A stretch of DNA of 64,000 nt from an uncultured Pseudomonadota bacterium (lineage in GTDB: Bacteria > Pseudomonadota > Gammaproteobacteria > CAJXQU01): positions 1 to 64,000 of the forward strand of contig CAJXQU010000007.1 in assembly GCA_913058255.1 (NCBI GenBank). Reading direction: 5' to 3'. The notes under the pieces are model-generated. The model saw nothing but the letters and a program-made list of their open reading frames with translations. It had not been told where the DNA came from and searched no databases. This document shows, piece after piece, positions 10,797-19,350 of the stretch (its first letter is position 1; each line of letters starts with the position of its first letter). A program made the translations under genes and the position numbers.

Positions 10797-12080
10797 TTAT
10801 TTATGAAAAACTGAAATATTGAGACCTGTTTTACGAATGGTTATAAACCAAAGGCCTATGGACCAAAATGCCAGTGTTGTGAATATTGCTAACGCAGCGC
10901 CTGTAAGTCCAAAGCTGGGGATCAACAGATAATTTGATACTATCATCAATAACAAGCCTAAAAGTAAGATGGGCAGTGAAGCAAAAGGTGACTCATAAAG
11001 CGATAAAACCAGACTCGCAGGCCCCATCATCATACGCAGAATTAAACCGGTGGTCATAATCATTAATGGAATTAACCCAGCTTTAAACTCTGGTCCAAAT
11101 AAAGATAAAGCCCAGTTTCCTAATAAACTTAACCCAACTAATGCTAAGCAACCTATGAGGCAACTTAACCAACTAGCTTGACGGATCTTTGCGAGCATTT
11201 CAGTCGATAAATTCTTATTAAGAGATTCAAAAATGTCCGGTAAGATCAGGGTGTATATTGTCGACATAGCGAAGCCGATCAACATTAAAAATTTCAATGA
11301 AACACCAAAAATAGCAAGTTCATTTTTTTCTAATATTCCGGATAGGGCAATAAGATCCAGATCGATAAAAAAATCACTGATAAGGCCAATAACAATCCAA
11401 GGACCTGCATATTTAAACCAACGTTTTAATTCGCTTTGATTAGTTGAAGGATAGTTTAGTTTTTCGTTCAGTAATTTTTTTAATAAATAAGCTTGGCATA
11501 AAGCCAAACACCAAATAAAAATAACAGCGATCCAAAGCATATTTAATGATGCTGGTTCGGAAAATATATATATCGGAAAACTGACAGAAATAAGAAAAAT
11601 AATTGGCCGTGCCAGAGTGTCAGGTCCTAGACTTAAAAACGGTTGGCGTAGTCCAACTAAAATTCCACTATTGACGAAGGTAAGAGCAATTGCAGGCGCT
11701 AAAGTTAGTGCTAAAAGTAATGCTGTGGAGGTGAAGTTTTGAAACATTGAAACTTGAATTGACTGTAAGCTCCAGAATACTAAAGTTAAGAAAATTGACA
11801 GAGTAACAATAAATAGATAGGCGTGGTTACGAAAACTGATCAGTCGGTTGAATTCATTTTTTGAAGCATAGTCTGCTGCAAAGTAAGAGGCTATTGATTG
11901 GAATCCCAGCGGCAACAACACTGCGCTGACATTAGCTATAGCTATAATGAGTAAAAATTCAGCTAAAAATTCAGCCCCCAAATTTCGTGCAATAATAATT
12001 TGAGTTAGTACGGTTATCGCTGCACCAGAAAGCCGCATTAGAAAAAGAGCGGCGGAAGTGCTAAACAATCTTTTGATCAA
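10797..12080 (-). CDS. Oligosaccharide flippase (Wzx/MATE-like polysaccharide transporter)
   Basis: 427 aa polytopic membrane protein; LSGAAITVLTQIIIARNLGAEFLAEFLLIIAIANV is a typical N-terminus of this family. Confidence 0.82.
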   Translation of the reverse strand: MIKRLFSTSAALFLMRLSGAAITVLTQIIIARNLGAEFLAEFLLIIAIANVSAVLLPLGFQSIASYFAADYASKNEFNRLISFRNHAYLFIVTLSIFLTLVFWSLQSIQVSMFQNFTSTALLLALTLAPAIALTFVNSGILVGLRQPFLSLGPDTLARPIIFLISVSFPIYIFSEPASLNMLWIAVIFIWCLALCQAYLLKKLLNEKLNYPSTNQSELKRWFKYAGPWIVIGLISDFFIDLDLIALSGILEKNELAIFGVSLKFLMLIGFAMSTIYTLILPDIFESLNKNLSTEMLAKIRQASWLSCLIGCLALVGLSLLGNWALSLFGPEFKAGLIPLMIMTTGLILRMMMGPASLVLSLYESPFASLPILLLGLLLMIVSNYLLIPSFGLTGAALAIFTTLAFWSIGLWFITIRKTGLNISVFHK

Positions 12081-13234
12081 GGAAGATCAGCCGTCGCGAG
12101 TTGGCTTCGCCATTTTTCGACACGTTGTTGTAAGGTGGTTTTAATATCTTTGAGTAAAAAAAGTCCACGTCCAATAGTTCTACTCTTAATAGAATGCCCG
12201 TAAGTATAAATAGCGGGTACTTGAGTAATGGAACCATGTTGTCCAACCATGCCTTTTTTAAATTGATGCAAGCCTGAAAATCCATCGTTGCCACCTAGGT
12301 CATACCATTTGGCATGCGTATTTCCTGATAGCCATTGAATGATCCTGTCATGCATAAAATAGCCTGCACGCAGGGGTAGGGCTTCATCAGATGTGGCACC
12401 GTAGAGATAAACGGCGCTGTCACTGGATTTAAAAATAATGGCTGCAGCGACGGTAACCGTAGACTTTGTTATGAGAAATAATTCAGGCCTTAGCTTTTTA
12501 TCTTCAATGGACATTAGAATAGGTAAAGTTTCAATTGCCGAATAATCAGGAAATTGTTTGCGATCAGCCATCACTCGATAAAGATCCATGAAAATTTCAA
12601 GATTTTGATCCGATGTATCATGAACAAAAACTAAATCCTCTTGCTCTGATTTCTTTAGATGGTAGCGCCATTTCGAAGCATAACTTTTTCGTTGACTCTC
12701 AGTATCAATTGTTAGGTTTACATAATAACGGTCAGGAAAAGATAAATCTTTGCCTTGAGAGAATCCCTTTTCGACAAGTGATGTTTCTTGCCACTCCCTA
12801 GGTTCTGCGAAAGTCGATGGAAGTATTGAAAGCAGTAGGTTTTGTTCAACGGCGTAGCGTTGTATAAGTAAATTGATGCAAGCTTGATAATTGGAAAACG
12901 AACTTTCGGGATCTGCACAGTCTTTCAGCATAGGCCCCCATTTTATAATCGCTACCCCTGAACCTAAAAAAGGCACTCGTGCGATCATGACTGCGGCACC
13001 AGCAATAGCTTCTTTGTTGTTTGTATCTAACTTCTTTTCGAAGAGACAATATTGAGTGTCGAGCTTAGGCCATCGATTATTGATAAATATGGCTAATTGT
13101 TCTTGTCGGAGATCACTAAAGTTGGTAATCGTTTTATCCCATTGCTCACTTTGTACCTCTTTGATTGATAAACTTGAGGAAGGTAGAGGCTCATTTTTTT
13201 CATTGAGCTTTGTAGAGGGGCAGGGTTTATTCAT
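12077..13234 (-). CDS. FemAB/FemX-like peptidoglycan-bridge-type aminoacyl/acyltransferase
   Basis: 385 aa; YASKWRYHLKKSEQEDLVFVHD, LYGATSDEALPLRAGYFMHDRIIQWLSGNTHAKWYDLGGNDGFSGLHQFKKGMVG is a FemAB-type C-terminal half; overlaps the flippase start by 4 nt. Confidence 0.82.
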   Translation of the reverse strand: MNKPCPSTKLNEKNEPLPSSSLSIKEVQSEQWDKTITNFSDLRQEQLAIFINNRWPKLDTQYCLFEKKLDTNNKEAIAGAAVMIARVPFLGSGVAIIKWGPMLKDCADPESSFSNYQACINLLIQRYAVEQNLLLSILPSTFAEPREWQETSLVEKGFSQGKDLSFPDRYYVNLTIDTESQRKSYASKWRYHLKKSEQEDLVFVHDTSDQNLEIFMDLYRVMADRKQFPDYSAIETLPILMSIEDKKLRPELFLITKSTVTVAAAIIFKSSDSAVYLYGATSDEALPLRAGYFMHDRIIQWLSGNTHAKWYDLGGNDGFSGLHQFKKGMVGQHGSITQVPAIYTYGHSIKSRTIGRGLFLLKDIKTTLQQRVEKWRSQLATADLP

Positions 13235-13695
13235 AGAAAGCAGTTTTTATTGTTAGTGATATAAAAAACATTTTAAGGTTAGTTTTCCGCTTTGCAAACG
13301 CCTATATGTTTATGATTGATCATAATCTTTGAACTCTCTATCGGTGATATCAGGCTCATTCGTCTCCTTATGCATTGATAAATCCGGTAATTTTTTCATA
13401 TTCTGCAGTTTCAGATGGTTCAAAGCACAAACTCTTTATCTGTATGTAAACGGGAACAGTTTCTTGTCTAACTTGACGAATTAACATGTCGTTCATGTTT
13501 GGAGTATATACTTATCAGTTTTATGTATGATTGAATAACTTCACCAGCTATTTTATGATGGATTTTAATCAAAATAACAGCAGTAGCCTCAAGCATTGTT
13601 TTCTTCTAAGGCATTATAGCTTTTGGAAAGATATCGTTTAAGAAAGAAGACCTGAGCTATTATTATATCTAAATATATCCTAGAGGAGTGGAATT

Positions 13696-14868
13696 ATGAG
13701 CAATACAACCCTTCAATATCTTGATAAAGCGATGAACCAATTACGTGATCTTGGTTTAATGCCAGAGAATGTCGAAGAAGCGCCAATTCTGGCTCTGCTA
13801 GAGCGAATTTCGGATATTGATAGTGATAAATCGTTAGCGATTGCACGAACATTGTCGCAAGCATCTGTTTTTAACGATGTTGTCCGTGAACAAGTTAGTC
13901 AGATGAAAATGGGCGAGCGCTACGAAGAAATTACCACCGCATTCAACAGCATTCGTAATGATGCAAAAAGCATGGTTGAACAAGTTGAAGATGGAAAAAT
14001 AGATACTTTTGAAAGAGTTAGTAATGTCTGGATGAAAGTGACTCGTGGAGATATCGCGAGCCGTTTCGATAAAATTAAAGCGACTTATCTCGAAATAGCT
14101 GGTGATTCGCGTGATCAGATCGAGCGTGAGCGAACCATTCTAAATGCTTATCAAGATTTTCGTGGTGCGATGAAAGAATCAGAAATTCATGCCCTCGATA
14201 TTTTGAAACAAGCTGAAGCCCTCTGGAATGAATCGCAAGGAAGGTTAAAGCAAGCTGCAGAAACAGTAGCATCATTTGCGGGCGAAGATATGGCAGAGCG
14301 AGCGAAGTTAGAACTAGCTCGTGATGAAAAATTACGTGCGCTGCAATTTGCGGAAGATCGTTATCAAATTTCGAAAGATTTGTCTGATAATTTGACGGTC
14401 AGCTACAACACATCAGAAGTCATTATGGCGCGTCTAATGCAAACCACCAGTGCAAAAGATCGCGTCTATAAACAGGCAATAACATTCTTTGGAACTAATG
14501 AAACAGTTCTTACAGCACTTACGGCTTCATTCACTGGGCTATTTGGTTTACATGAAAGCACCCAAGCGCTAGAAGCGATGAAAGACGGTGTTTCACAAAG
14601 CCTTGAAGACTTGGCTGATATTGGTGGTAAGGTGCAAGAAGCAGCCGTTAGAGCAGGTTATGGCCCTACTATCCGAGCTGAGTCGGTGAAAAAGCTGGTC
14701 GATTCTGTCGTGAATTTTCAAGAACGTACAACTGAGATTATTGCTGAAATGCGCATATTATCCACCAAAAATGCTGAAGAAATTCGTGATGTGGTTGAGG
14801 ATGGCAAACGTCGTTTGACGGTGATCATCAACCGAGGCGATTCTTTACCTTTATCCCATAACGTTTAA
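13696..14868 (+). CDS. Uncharacterised long alpha-helical protein (operon gene A)
   Basis: 390 aa, predominantly helical; upstream GAGGAG Shine-Dalgarno; followed by gene B after 11 nt. Confidence 0.85.
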   Translation: MSNTTLQYLDKAMNQLRDLGLMPENVEEAPILALLERISDIDSDKSLAIARTLSQASVFNDVVREQVSQMKMGERYEEITTAFNSIRNDAKSMVEQVEDGKIDTFERVSNVWMKVTRGDIASRFDKIKATYLEIAGDSRDQIERERTILNAYQDFRGAMKESEIHALDILKQAEALWNESQGRLKQAAETVASFAGEDMAERAKLELARDEKLRALQFAEDRYQISKDLSDNLTVSYNTSEVIMARLMQTTSAKDRVYKQAITFFGTNETVLTALTASFTGLFGLHESTQALEAMKDGVSQSLEDLADIGGKVQEAAVRAGYGPTIRAESVKKLVDSVVNFQERTTEIIAEMRILSTKNAEEIRDVVEDGKRRLTVIINRGDSLPLSHNV

Positions 14869-14879
14869 CACGACTTCTT

Positions 14880-15788
14880 ATGGCGAGCATAGAAAAAGCA
14901 GCACCATTAGAAGATCTGATGGTGGCTATGGATGTCGTAGATACCTTGCGACATCGTCAGCAATTAGTTGATCGTGAGCTCGATGCCGATGTTCGCCGAG
15001 AACGCTTGATCGAAAAACTGCGTGATATTTATCAAGCACAAGGAATAGATGTTACGGATCAAGTGCTCGCTGACGGCGTGCGAGCGCTTGAAGAAGATCG
15101 CTTTAAATACACTTCCCCCGCAGATTCTTTCTCGACATGGCTAGCAAAGCTTTATGTCAAACGAGAACAATGGTTAAAACCCTTTCTGCTCGGCTTAGGT
15201 CTTTTAGTGTGTTTGTGTTTTTTCTATTACCTGGCAGCGGTTCGCCCAGTTCAAGTTGCTCACAATGCATTGCCTGAACAGCTTCGGCAATCATATGGAG
15301 AAGTGATTCAACTCGCTGGAGAGCAAGAGGTTTTAGCTCAGGCCTTAGAGCTCCAGTCTTACGGTAAGCAGGCATTGAACAATGAGAGTTTTGATGAAGC
15401 CCAATCTGCTGTTGATGATCTTGAAGTGATGCTTATCAAATTAAAAAGTGCTTACCAGCTTCGTGTTTTACAAGAGCCCGGAGAGCGTTCGGGTGTTTGG
15501 CGAATTCCGGATGCGAATAATGGCGCTCGAAATTACTACATCATTATAGAAGCGGTTGATTCACGCGGTAAGGTTTTATCCATTCCTATAACGAGTGAAG
15601 AGTCTGGTAAAACAACCGTGGTTAGTAAGTGGGGAGTGCGCGTTGATCAGTCAACGTATCAAGCCATTGGAGCGGATAAGAAAGATGATGGGATTATTCA
15701 AGATCGTGCAGTAGGCCAAAAACAACGCGGTAAACTTCATCCTGAGTATAGTATTTCTTCAAGTGGCGCAGCGATAACGGACTGGTAG
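14880..15788 (+). CDS. DUF6384-like single-pass membrane protein (operon gene B)
   Basis: 302 aa; helical N-terminus (LEDLMVAMDVVDTLRHRQQLVDREL), one TM (FLLGLGLLVCLCFFYYLAAV), C-terminal beta-rich domain (NYYIIIEAVDSRGKVLSIPITSEESGKT). Confidence 0.8.
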   Translation: MASIEKAAPLEDLMVAMDVVDTLRHRQQLVDRELDADVRRERLIEKLRDIYQAQGIDVTDQVLADGVRALEEDRFKYTSPADSFSTWLAKLYVKREQWLKPFLLGLGLLVCLCFFYYLAAVRPVQVAHNALPEQLRQSYGEVIQLAGEQEVLAQALELQSYGKQALNNESFDEAQSAVDDLEVMLIKLKSAYQLRVLQEPGERSGVWRIPDANNGARNYYIIIEAVDSRGKVLSIPITSEESGKTTVVSKWGVRVDQSTYQAIGADKKDDGIIQDRAVGQKQRGKLHPEYSISSSGAAITDW

Positions 15789-15799
15789 GAGAGAGTAGT

Positions 15800-17260
15800 A
15801 TGATCAGTGGGACACAAACATTACGTTATCTTGACCAAGGGCTGGGCTCAGTTCGGAAAGATATTAACCGAGTCGATGCAGAATTAAATCATGTCAGTGA
15901 AGCTGTACATGGCAATCGTCGTCAACAAGCTGAATCATTAAAACAGCTTGCAAAAATTCGATTGGATGAAATTAGCCAAGGCTCTTTTTTAGGTGAGCTT
16001 GAAGCCGCTGATCAACGAGCAATTTCACTACTAAAAGAAAGAGGTCGTGCCTATCAACAGTTGGAAGAAAGTATTGATAGTGGTAGTTTGGCTTTAAAAG
16101 GATTAGAAGAAAAACGACAAACAGCTTTAGAGGTGATGAATAAAAAAGCTCAAAGGGTTGTCGATTGTGAACATAAAATTCAAGTGGGTTTAGAGAGTGA
16201 TAGTATCTATCAAGCGCAGCTTCAAGAAGCTCGCAAGATTGATAGCATTGCTGAACAAGCAGAAGGTAAAGCTAAACTTGCAGAAAAAGATCGTCTTGAA
16301 AAAGGTCGGCCTTATGAAAGTAATAAATTGTTTATCTATCTTTGGAATAGACGCTATGGTACACCAGATTATACGGGAAATTCCTTAACTCGTTACCTTG
16401 ATAGCTGGGTGGAAGAACTCTCGGATTATAATAAATATCGTGTTAACTACTGGATGCTTTTAGAGATCCCGAAACGTTTGAAAGCTCATGCTCTAGAAGC
16501 TCGACGGGATTCTGATCTTTCGCTCGAAGTGTTGGTTGCAATAGAAACAGAACAAGCCGAACAGTCCGGTTTGCCACAACTGCAATCTGAGCATGCTCAA
16601 GCTTTAGGGAATGTTGATGGCATTGATGATGAAATTGAACAACAAGAACACTCACTTAACTTACTCTTTAAGCAACGGACAGAGTTTGTTGAAGCAAAAG
16701 ACAGTTACATGGAACAGAGCTTACAAACTTTAAGCACGGCATTAAGTAACAAAAGTGTATATGAATTAAATGATGCGGCTCATCAAACGGTGAGTAATCA
16801 AGATAACTTAATGGTTCGCGAGTTGGCTGAGTTACAAGAACAGAGTCATGATTTAGAAACAGAATTACGTGACCATCGTCGTATGCACGAAGCTAAACTA
16901 AAACGATTAGAACAATTAGAAAATGTGCGTCGGCAATTTAAAAATCATCGTTATGATGACATACGTTCAGGCTTTGGAAATGAGAGTTTGATTACTTCGA
17001 TGTTTAGCCAATTTTTAAATGGATTGATCGGCAGTGGTGAACTTTGGCGAGTATTACAAAGGCATCAACGCCATCGCGATGTTGGGGCTTGGCCTGATTT
17101 TGGTAGTGGTGGTTTAGGTATTCCTACACGTCGACGCAGTCCTTGGCATCTTCCGACTGGTCGAAGAGGCTCAGGTGGAAGCATCTTTCGAATGCCAAGA
17201 TCCGGCGGTTTTAATTCACGCGGTAGCGGTGGTGGTTTTCGAACGGGTGGTGGGTTTTAA
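15800..17260 (+). CDS. Uncharacterised coiled-coil protein with Gly/Arg/Ser-rich C-terminal tail (operon gene C)
   Basis: 486 aa; heptad-rich body, tail TGRRGSGGSIFRMPRSGGFNSRGSGGGFRTGGGF; 11 nt after gene B. Confidence 0.83.
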   Translation: MISGTQTLRYLDQGLGSVRKDINRVDAELNHVSEAVHGNRRQQAESLKQLAKIRLDEISQGSFLGELEAADQRAISLLKERGRAYQQLEESIDSGSLALKGLEEKRQTALEVMNKKAQRVVDCEHKIQVGLESDSIYQAQLQEARKIDSIAEQAEGKAKLAEKDRLEKGRPYESNKLFIYLWNRRYGTPDYTGNSLTRYLDSWVEELSDYNKYRVNYWMLLEIPKRLKAHALEARRDSDLSLEVLVAIETEQAEQSGLPQLQSEHAQALGNVDGIDDEIEQQEHSLNLLFKQRTEFVEAKDSYMEQSLQTLSTALSNKSVYELNDAAHQTVSNQDNLMVRELAELQEQSHDLETELRDHRRMHEAKLKRLEQLENVRRQFKNHRYDDIRSGFGNESLITSMFSQFLNGLIGSGELWRVLQRHQRHRDVGAWPDFGSGGLGIPTRRRSPWHLPTGRRGSGGSIFRMPRSGGFNSRGSGGGFRTGGGF

Positions 17261-17270
17261 ATAAAACAAG

Positions 17271-17308
17271 GGGCTGTCCTAGTTAACTAATCGCTAGGAC
17301 AGCCCTTT
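17271..17308 (+). terminator. Rho-independent terminator after operon A-B-C (may serve both convergent genes)
   Basis: GGGCTGTCCTAG-(11 nt)-CTAGGACAGCCC followed by TTT. Confidence 0.9.
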
Positions 17309-17337: not shown

Positions 17338-19350
17338 CTACGAAAGAGGTGCAACGTCGCAAGGTTGAGGAGCTACATGTATCACATGATCAGCTGAGCC
17401 TTTATTGCTAGAATTACTTTTAGCATCACTTCTCTCAGTAATACTATAGATACAGTTACGCCCATTTGCTTTAGCTGTATAAACACCAATATCTGCAGCT
17501 TTAAGCAAATCGTTGGTGCTCACATCATGCGGATGACGTGTTGCAACACCAATACTTACCGTCGTAACAAGTTCATTATCGCCAACGAGGGTAGAAAGGT
17601 TCTCAACAGCGGTGCGTAACCTTTCAGCTGCAGCCTCGGCCTCTGCCATGTCTGTATTGGTACAGATCACGAGAAACTCCTCTCCTCCAATCCGACAAAC
17701 TTCATCGCCTAAACGAGAAGCCGTTCGTAAGGCTTGTGCTACTTCGTATAAAACAGCATCACCAGCATCATGACCATACTTATCATTGATCCCTTTAAAT
17801 AGGTCGATATCAATCAACATACAGCTTAACGATACTTGACCACGATTAGACGTCGCCCACTCTTGTTCTAAACGATTCGTTGCATAACGTCGGTTTGGTA
17901 TATTGGTCAATTGATCAGTGAGTGCCGCTTGTTCTAATTGTTTATTGGCTGATGCTAGCTCGGCTAAGATTTTACGGCTTTTATTACGTTCATCTCTAAC
18001 CTTTTTCTGTAATCGGAAAACACGTTGTCCACCACGAATTCTAGCTAAAACAACATTCGGACTAAAAGGCTTTTCGATAAAATCATCCGCACCAGCTTTG
18101 AAGGCACTAATTAATGCTTCTTCACTATTATTGGTTGTCATGGCGATGATATACATTTTTTGCCCAGCAGCTGTTCTACGGAGCGAACGGCATAACTCAA
18201 GGCCATCCATTTCAGGTATTGTGATATCTGTGATTAGAAGTTGTGGATTTATTTCCAATGCAAGCTGTAAAGCTTCTTTGCCTGTTCTTGCTTTTGTAAC
18301 AAGGTGGCCGGCGTTGGTAAGTTGTTGGTAAAGGCTATTGCTTGTCGCAATATCATTATCAGCAATTAAAACCTGCAGCCCGCGATCAATAGTTTGTTCA
18401 AGATTAATCAATTCTGGAGAGATAGGCTCTTGAGATATCGCGTCATTAGATTCTGACGGAGCATCGGCCTGCTCCGGAACATCCAATAATTGGCTCCAGT
18501 TGTTCCAGATATTCTTTGTTTTACCGACGATAGATCGCAGTTCTTCATTATCGATATTTAGTTTTAAGGCTTCTTTTAACAAAGTATTAAACAGAGGGTG
18601 ATCCACAGATAAATCTTGAGTACAGATAGTGGCTACTTTTGCAGAAAGGTTGAGATATTGCGCTAATGATTGAGCTCTATGATTCTGATTAGCAACTTTA
18701 GAAATATCATACATTCCATAAATCGCATTGTAGTGAACCGGTGGCAATCCCCAATCTTTTAACATAGCATGCGCCATTTCAAGATGATCCGTGTAAAAAT
18801 ATTTGACCTCAGCCTCAAGTAACTCGTTTATTGGTTTATCGCCATTTGCTTCGAGAATTTCACTATATTGCTCAGGATAAACATTGGCTAGACCTAACCG
18901 ACCAATATTACTTAATAGACCCACCGTAAAAGCTTCATCCTTAGGGAATAATTTATCACGATTACTGAATAGTTCAGTGCTTACCCCCATTGCTAGTGAA
19001 TAAGACCAAAAATTTTGATAGTCAAATGCAGAACATTCACCATCCATATTACTCGATAAAACCGATAAACCAATGGTGATTTGACGTGTTACGCCAGCAC
19101 CAACACGAGAGATAGTTTCGGCCAAAGAGACAGTAGGTCGGCCACCTTCTTCGCCTTCACCAAACGAATTTGCAAGCTTGATTAAACGGCCTGCTAATGC
19201 AGGGTCAGCTTGAATTGTGCTCGTTATATCGGCAGTAGAAACCTGCTTGTTTTGCATGTGTTCTAAAACAGTTAACGCAACTCCAGTTGGTGAAGGTAGA
19301 TCACCCGTCGCTTTTAATTCTAAGAATCGATGTTCGGATAAATGTGTCAT
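17338..19350 (-). CDS. HDOD-REC-GGDEF three-domain signalling protein (diguanylate cyclase)
   Basis: 670 aa: HDOD N-terminus (LPSPTGVALTVLEHMQ...IQADPALAGRLIKLANS), REC (VLIADND...LLITDITIPEMDG...EKPF), GGDEF with RIGGEEF. Confidence 0.93.
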   Translation of the reverse strand: MTHLSEHRFLELKATGDLPSPTGVALTVLEHMQNKQVSTADITSTIQADPALAGRLIKLANSFGEGEEGGRPTVSLAETISRVGAGVTRQITIGLSVLSSNMDGECSAFDYQNFWSYSLAMGVSTELFSNRDKLFPKDEAFTVGLLSNIGRLGLANVYPEQYSEILEANGDKPINELLEAEVKYFYTDHLEMAHAMLKDWGLPPVHYNAIYGMYDISKVANQNHRAQSLAQYLNLSAKVATICTQDLSVDHPLFNTLLKEALKLNIDNEELRSIVGKTKNIWNNWSQLLDVPEQADAPSESNDAISQEPISPELINLEQTIDRGLQVLIADNDIATSNSLYQQLTNAGHLVTKARTGKEALQLALEINPQLLITDITIPEMDGLELCRSLRRTAAGQKMYIIAMTTNNSEEALISAFKAGADDFIEKPFSPNVVLARIRGGQRVFRLQKKVRDERNKSRKILAELASANKQLEQAALTDQLTNIPNRRYATNRLEQEWATSNRGQVSLSCMLIDIDLFKGINDKYGHDAGDAVLYEVAQALRTASRLGDEVCRIGGEEFLVICTNTDMAEAEAAAERLRTAVENLSTLVGDNELVTTVSIGVATRHPHDVSTNDLLKAADIGVYTAKANGRNCIYSITERSDAKSNSSNKGSADHVIHVAPQPCDVAPLS

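Follow-up and report, generated by a model that had tools for sequence, protein, structure and literature searches.

Genes A, B and C (Table 1), which follow one another on one strand of the window (i.e., of the whole stretch of 64,000 nucleotides that was analysed), represent a real, undescribed, rare and mobile three-gene system, and both their co-occurrence and their fixed order mark them as an obligate unit. Of 369 genomes of the class, 16 contain A, and 15 of these contain B and C as well (association of A and B, Fisher P=9e-26); in the remaining one (G198) the contig ends within the locus. When 84,980 species were scanned, relatives of A were met in 198 loci (about 200 species) of Gammaproteobacteria, Alphaproteobacteria, Campylobacterota, Nitrospirota and Planctomycetota. 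The order of genes was surveyed in 81 loci (80 fetched loci with A and the window): A-B-C follow each other on one strand in 77 of them, one more has B split into two ORFs, and the remaining three end at a contig border. Since homologous triads recur at the amino-acid level across these 81 loci, the genes are not chance ORFs. A is the most conserved member (63–87% identity to the window copy in 80 homologues), while the corresponding ranges are 35–66% for B and 28–68% for C. Sampling of 182 genomes across the phylum returned the system from the window's own genome alone, implying that it is rare. The earlier note, made from the letters of this DNA, had proposed an undescribed compact system of three genes; the lack of co-occurrence elsewhere, which would speak against it, was not what the 369 genomes and 81 loci revealed. 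Thus three orphan families become one testable system, whose carriers include a cultivated phage and tractable bacteria.

Table 1. Features of the A-B-C locus (positions of the window).
Feature	Position	Strand	Description
Gene A	13696-14868	+	390 aa, soluble, all-helical; no family; possible remote TelA relative
Gene B	14880-15788	+	302 aa, bitopic membrane protein, DUF6384 (PF19911)
Gene C	15800-17260	+	486 aa, coiled-coil protein with Gly/Arg-rich tail
Transmembrane helix of B	15186-15242	+	residues ~103-121, N-terminus predicted cytoplasmic; hydropathy and positive-inside rule
C-terminal beta domain of B	15453-15785	+	residues 192-302, predicted periplasmic, invariant terminal Trp
Disordered Gly/Arg/Ser-rich tail of C	17090-17257	+	from sequence
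C-terminal motif FRTGGGF-stop (consensus FxTGGGF)	17237-17260	+	form kept in phage and plasmid copies
Intrinsic terminator	17268-17308	+	16-bp stem, loop 9
Non-coding stretch upstream of A	13235-13695	.	461 bp, divergent from FemAB-like gene

Among the three products only B falls into a described family. Its likeness to DUF6384, proposed in the earlier note, is borne out by Pfam (PF19911, 377 bits against a cut-off of 25 bits, E=6.9e-113, positions 3–308 of 308), so that by sequence B is a true full-length member of this family, which has no assigned function and for which the literature search returned no paper. Its partners belong to no family: neither A nor C has a match above the curated cut-off in Pfam or NCBIfam, or anything meaningful in PADLOC or PHROGs. 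No known kind of system matched A-B-C in these tests. Lysines and arginines are more numerous before the transmembrane helix than after it in 71 of the 87 homologues of B, and because of this excess of positive charges on the N-terminal side approximately 95 N-terminal residues are predicted to be cytoplasmic and the rest periplasmic. In most homologues a stalk of 60–80 residues separates the membrane from the beta domain; one group has a stalk of about 200, and plasmid copies reach as many as 260. The beta domain itself keeps about 111 residues and the conserved last Trp. AlphaFold2 models this domain with pLDDT of about 82–93, and Foldseek gave no match for it in PDB at E<=0.001. B is therefore predicted to have a single N-in membrane helix and a periplasmic stalk with an orphan beta domain at its end; a cytoplasmic helical N-terminus, one transmembrane segment and a beta-rich domain had been read from the sequence before, and hydropathy, charge bias and AlphaFold2 agree with that reading; the stalk and the orphan character of the beta domain had escaped the earlier note.

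A lacks transmembrane segments and its AlphaFold model is all-helical, in line with the soluble helical protein supposed earlier. The model is poor (pLDDT 59), probably due to too uniform an alignment, and at this low confidence shows two very long helices (119–192 and 199–284); Foldseek matches to ClyA-type proteins and chemoreceptors were set aside as generic helical similarity found with a poor model. C was confirmed as a coiled coil with a disordered Gly/Arg tail, the last 60 residues over homologues being composed of 32% Gly, 13% Arg and 12% Ser. The combination of one membrane-anchored protein with two soluble helical partners, as initially suggested, is thus supported, filaments and a scaffold being putative. 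The earlier note also missed the very end of C, which fits one short pattern in 74 of 85 homologues, with variants like FSSSDSF and FSTSDSF in the copies from phage and plasmids. The search for FxTGGGF followed by a stop in the 369 genomes gave 16 matches, 14 of them being the end of C; they cover all but one of the 15 triad-bearing genomes and are written with differing synonymous codons. The other two were rejected, one having a Trp codon in place of the stop and the other being a chance frame of 26 residues (L179). Since no other real gene in the 369 genomes ends in this way, the motif is specific to the A-B-C system, and most simply it would be read by A or B.

Whether the unit is bound to a particular genomic context may be judged from its flanks. 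The gene upstream of A has the same orientation in 36 loci and the opposite one in 41, and flanking genes differ between loci except within close groups, which argues that A-B-C moves as a cassette. In the tree of A, six sequences from Campylobacterota form one group (support 100) inside Gammaproteobacteria, neighboured by the window's own sequence and Thiomicrorhabdus, and copies from Planctomycetota and Nitrospirota are placed among Proteobacteria. Most copies are chromosomal and lie among housekeeping genes. A is also carried by 11 plasmids, each of at least 320 kb, from Pseudomonas, Bradyrhizobium, Microvirga, Methylorubrum extorquens AM1 and Rhizobium, with B and C downstream in all nine plasmids that were fetched. 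A is annotated on plasmids of Pseudomonas aeruginosa as “merozoite surface protein 3b” and on those of Bradyrhizobium as “cell surface protein”, both probably misnomers originating from coiled-coil similarity.

The full set is present in the Yersinia jumbo phage phiR1-37 (262 kb) as g190-g191-g192. The product of g190 is a homologue of A (39% identity) and that of g191 is B (PF19911, E=4.7e-26); a 440-aa viral protein, which is the length of g191, is matched by the structural model of B with E=2e-15. The third gene was assigned to C by position, coiled-coil make-up and the tail GFSSSDSF, the phage protein being too diverged to be found by the profile of C. These genes, homologous to the bacterial operon, are annotated as hypothetical, and they are unmentioned in the phiR1-37 literature examined. 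No other phage with A-B-C was found in 50,697 records, nor did viral contigs, when scanned for A and B, yield further clear phage carriers. One copy adjoins a phage integrase in a Pseudomonas contig called as provirus; the IMG/VR loci L126–L129 were considered as prophage cargo, and this reading was rejected on account of flanks that look like host Pseudomonas genes.

A may be compared with TelA. The TelA/KlaB family of toxic-anion resistance is found on plasmids, in the kilA operon of RK2, and to our knowledge it is unclear how it works. Like A, TelA (PF05816) is a soluble, all-helical protein of about 390 aa with patchy distribution, met on plasmids and in jumbo phages. The profile built from all A proteins is co-linear with that of TelA over the full length (P=3e-4), and global HHalign of plasmid and phage A with TelA covers 370 co-linear columns with P=1.4e-5, probability 58% and score 29.6. 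The 105 block-shuffled controls did not exceed 15.4, as compared with this score or with 27.5 for the trimmed alignment from which the shuffles came, and reversed controls gave nothing. C is helical but unrelated to A, and comparing these two still gives 20.4 across 243 columns; helical layout alone therefore explains part of the signal between A and TelA. The chromosomal-only profile of A and most subsets of TelA gave null results, and divergent TelAs do not match A. The A protein of the window has no match to PF05816; this family was likewise not among the matches listed, at E<=1, for a set of 12 divergent A proteins; the search of the window's genome with PF05816 came back empty, and no TelA was found by sequence in PDB. 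Judged by profiles, A is thus a possible remote relative of TelA, and the analogy to TelA put forward earlier gains weak full-length co-linear similarity on one side and loses a family match on the other. Given this similarity, TelA is a better analogy than PspA, which was put forward together with it.

The natural history of the two proteins would fit such kinship: the jumbo coliphages slurp01, PBECO4 and 121Q carry TelA (PMC5114366), as phiR1-37 carries A-B-C, and, according to the title of a reference in the same paper, TelA contributes to nisin and cell-wall antibiotic tolerance in Listeria (PMC5114366). If A truly is a remote TelA, A-B-C would be a variant of a TelA-type module and could help to explain the action of TelA. 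The neighbours of TelA in three gammaproteobacterial loci (L104–L106) are not B or C, unlike those of A. A membrane protein adjoins TelA in each of these loci, and two loci have in addition a protein that by eye is SPFH/GYF-like, making this TelA operon an object for comparison with A-B-C.

Recurrent neighbours of the cassette were examined as a further source of functional hints. The K+-binding BON-LysM protein Kbp (PDB 7pvc, E=6e-29) lies within approximately 300 bp of A in six loci, spread over some five distinct lineages in the tree of A and in both orientations, while by a rough estimate 0.04 such cases are expected by chance; in a seventh locus it is 4.4 kb away. A Kbp-like gene is also present in the genome of the window (contig C6:24819-25313), located far from A-B-C; its identity is 71% in one stretch and 46% in another. 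On the megaplasmid pMPPla107, genes for StiP-PELOTA, metallophosphoesterase and PTH2 are found upstream of A, with a similar layout, by annotation, on pBASL58. StiP is described in Pfam as a “tellurite-like stress resistance” protease, and these three genes constitute the likeness to tellurite (Ter) clusters, although A, B and C have no Ter family domain and the adjacency is limited to these two syntenic megaplasmids. Most A-B-C loci have neither Kbp nor StiP nearby. The presence of MoeA near A in four loci was discarded as coming mostly from one syntenic group, i.e., not independent, and DEAD-box and other shared neighbours were discarded because of scattered distances. The EcfG general-stress promoter is absent upstream of seven alphaproteobacterial copies. 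The Kbp and StiP neighbours and the possible TelA kinship of A are hints pointing to envelope or ionic stress.

The reading that we tentatively favour is an envelope-stress module of TelA/tellurite type, with an assembly of A and C that B would tether to the inner membrane, and the evidence for it is circumstantial. B would be anchored by its one inner-membrane helix, with the N-terminal part of about 95 residues in the cytoplasm and, on the periplasmic side, the beta domain at the end of a stalk that varies in length. A, helical and TelA-like in size and layout, may join the coiled-coil C in a cytoplasmic assembly brought to the membrane on the N-terminal domain of B. The FxTGGGF end of C could serve as a docking signal read inside the module, because, among the real proteins of the genomes searched, C alone has it. 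The whole assembly may shield or reorganise the inner membrane when ions, osmotic conditions, oxyanions or damage to the cell wall cause stress, or while a phage replicates; this role is suggested by the Kbp and StiP neighbours and by carriage in a jumbo phage. Concrete experiments can start from the tail motif and from the likeness of A to TelA in layout. Also possible, and next in our estimation, is that A-B-C is an undescribed mobile envelope machine unrelated to known systems, in which the membrane-tethered A-C pair would be controlled by FxTGGGF docking and the periplasm sensed via the orphan beta domain, occurring in at least four phyla, on megaplasmids and in a jumbo phage.

The main rival to the stress module, which we regard as unlikely, is a phage-conflict role, with A-B-C interrupting infection at the inner membrane, be it at entry, lysis or superinfection, as superinfection exclusion in the jumbo phage and as defence in bacteria and on megaplasmids. 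A patchy, horizontally moved cassette carried by phiR1-37 and large plasmids, with one copy beside the integrase in the provirus-called contig, would suit such a role; yet PADLOC-DB gave 0 matches at E<=1 for A, B and C, no recurrent defence gene occurs among the immediate neighbours, as would be seen in defence islands, and the host-like flanks of the provirus contigs and the chromosomal housekeeping setting of most copies speak against it. Lower in probability is a trans-envelope linker comparable to TolA, RodZ or TonB, where an A-C scaffold in the cytoplasm would be joined by B to the outer membrane or to peptidoglycan and would serve division, shape or some surface structure. The predicted build of B, from a cytoplasmic helical domain through one transmembrane segment and a periplasmic stalk of 60–260 residues to a globular end, agrees with this idea, whereas a beta domain without a match to known folds does not, the patchy distribution is unlike that of a core function, and the phage copy is hard to explain.

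Rather improbable is membrane remodelling of PspA/ESCRT type, with A or C polymerising on the membrane and B acting as a receptor. The two very long helices in the low-confidence, all-helical model of A and the single-pass, receptor-like B are compatible with it; the PspA analogy nevertheless found no backing, as neither A nor C matches PF04012 at E<=1 and, with the poor model of A, neither PspA nor ESCRT-III is among its top PDB matches. PspA/IM30 thus resembles the system by analogy only, as soluble helical proteins with a membrane partner and no sequence match, and the window's genome has neither PspA nor TelA. Very improbable is a function in maintenance or segregation of large replicons, i.e., megaplasmids and jumbo phage genomes: the sizes of the carriers (>320 kb for 11 of 11 plasmids, 262 kb for the phage) suit it, but the majority of copies are chromosomal with a patchy distribution, no domain of DNA-binding or NTPase type was found, and large replicons simply hold more genes.

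As for the layout of the locus in the window, the coordinates, lengths, strand and 11-nt gaps given at the outset are exact, and the upstream non-coding region put at about 460 bp exceeds this value by one. The equal spacing is a property of the window and is not conserved, the gap between A and B having a median of 13 and that between B and C a median of 4, both with wide ranges. The best sigma-70-like match near A occupies positions 13638–13666; promoter-like matches are at chance level (12 observed versus 9.6 expected), and the upstream promoter has no visible conservation across relatives. The strong terminator suspected after C is real (−27.7 kcal/mol, z = −6.6, with 0 of 200 shuffles equally stable), a simple scanner passing over it because of the loop longer than 8 nt, and it probably serves also the convergent gene with its stop at 17338. 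The latter (17338-19350, minus strand) encodes a protein of 670 aa that combines HDOD, response-regulator receiver and GGDEF domains. On the other side, the minus strand encodes a FemAB/GNAT-type protein (12077-13234; PF02388, PF13480) adjoined by the gene (10797-12080) of a multi-pass membrane protein, 427 aa long and resembling a polysaccharide flippase, and this pair (10797-13234) may belong to a cell-surface polymer locus.
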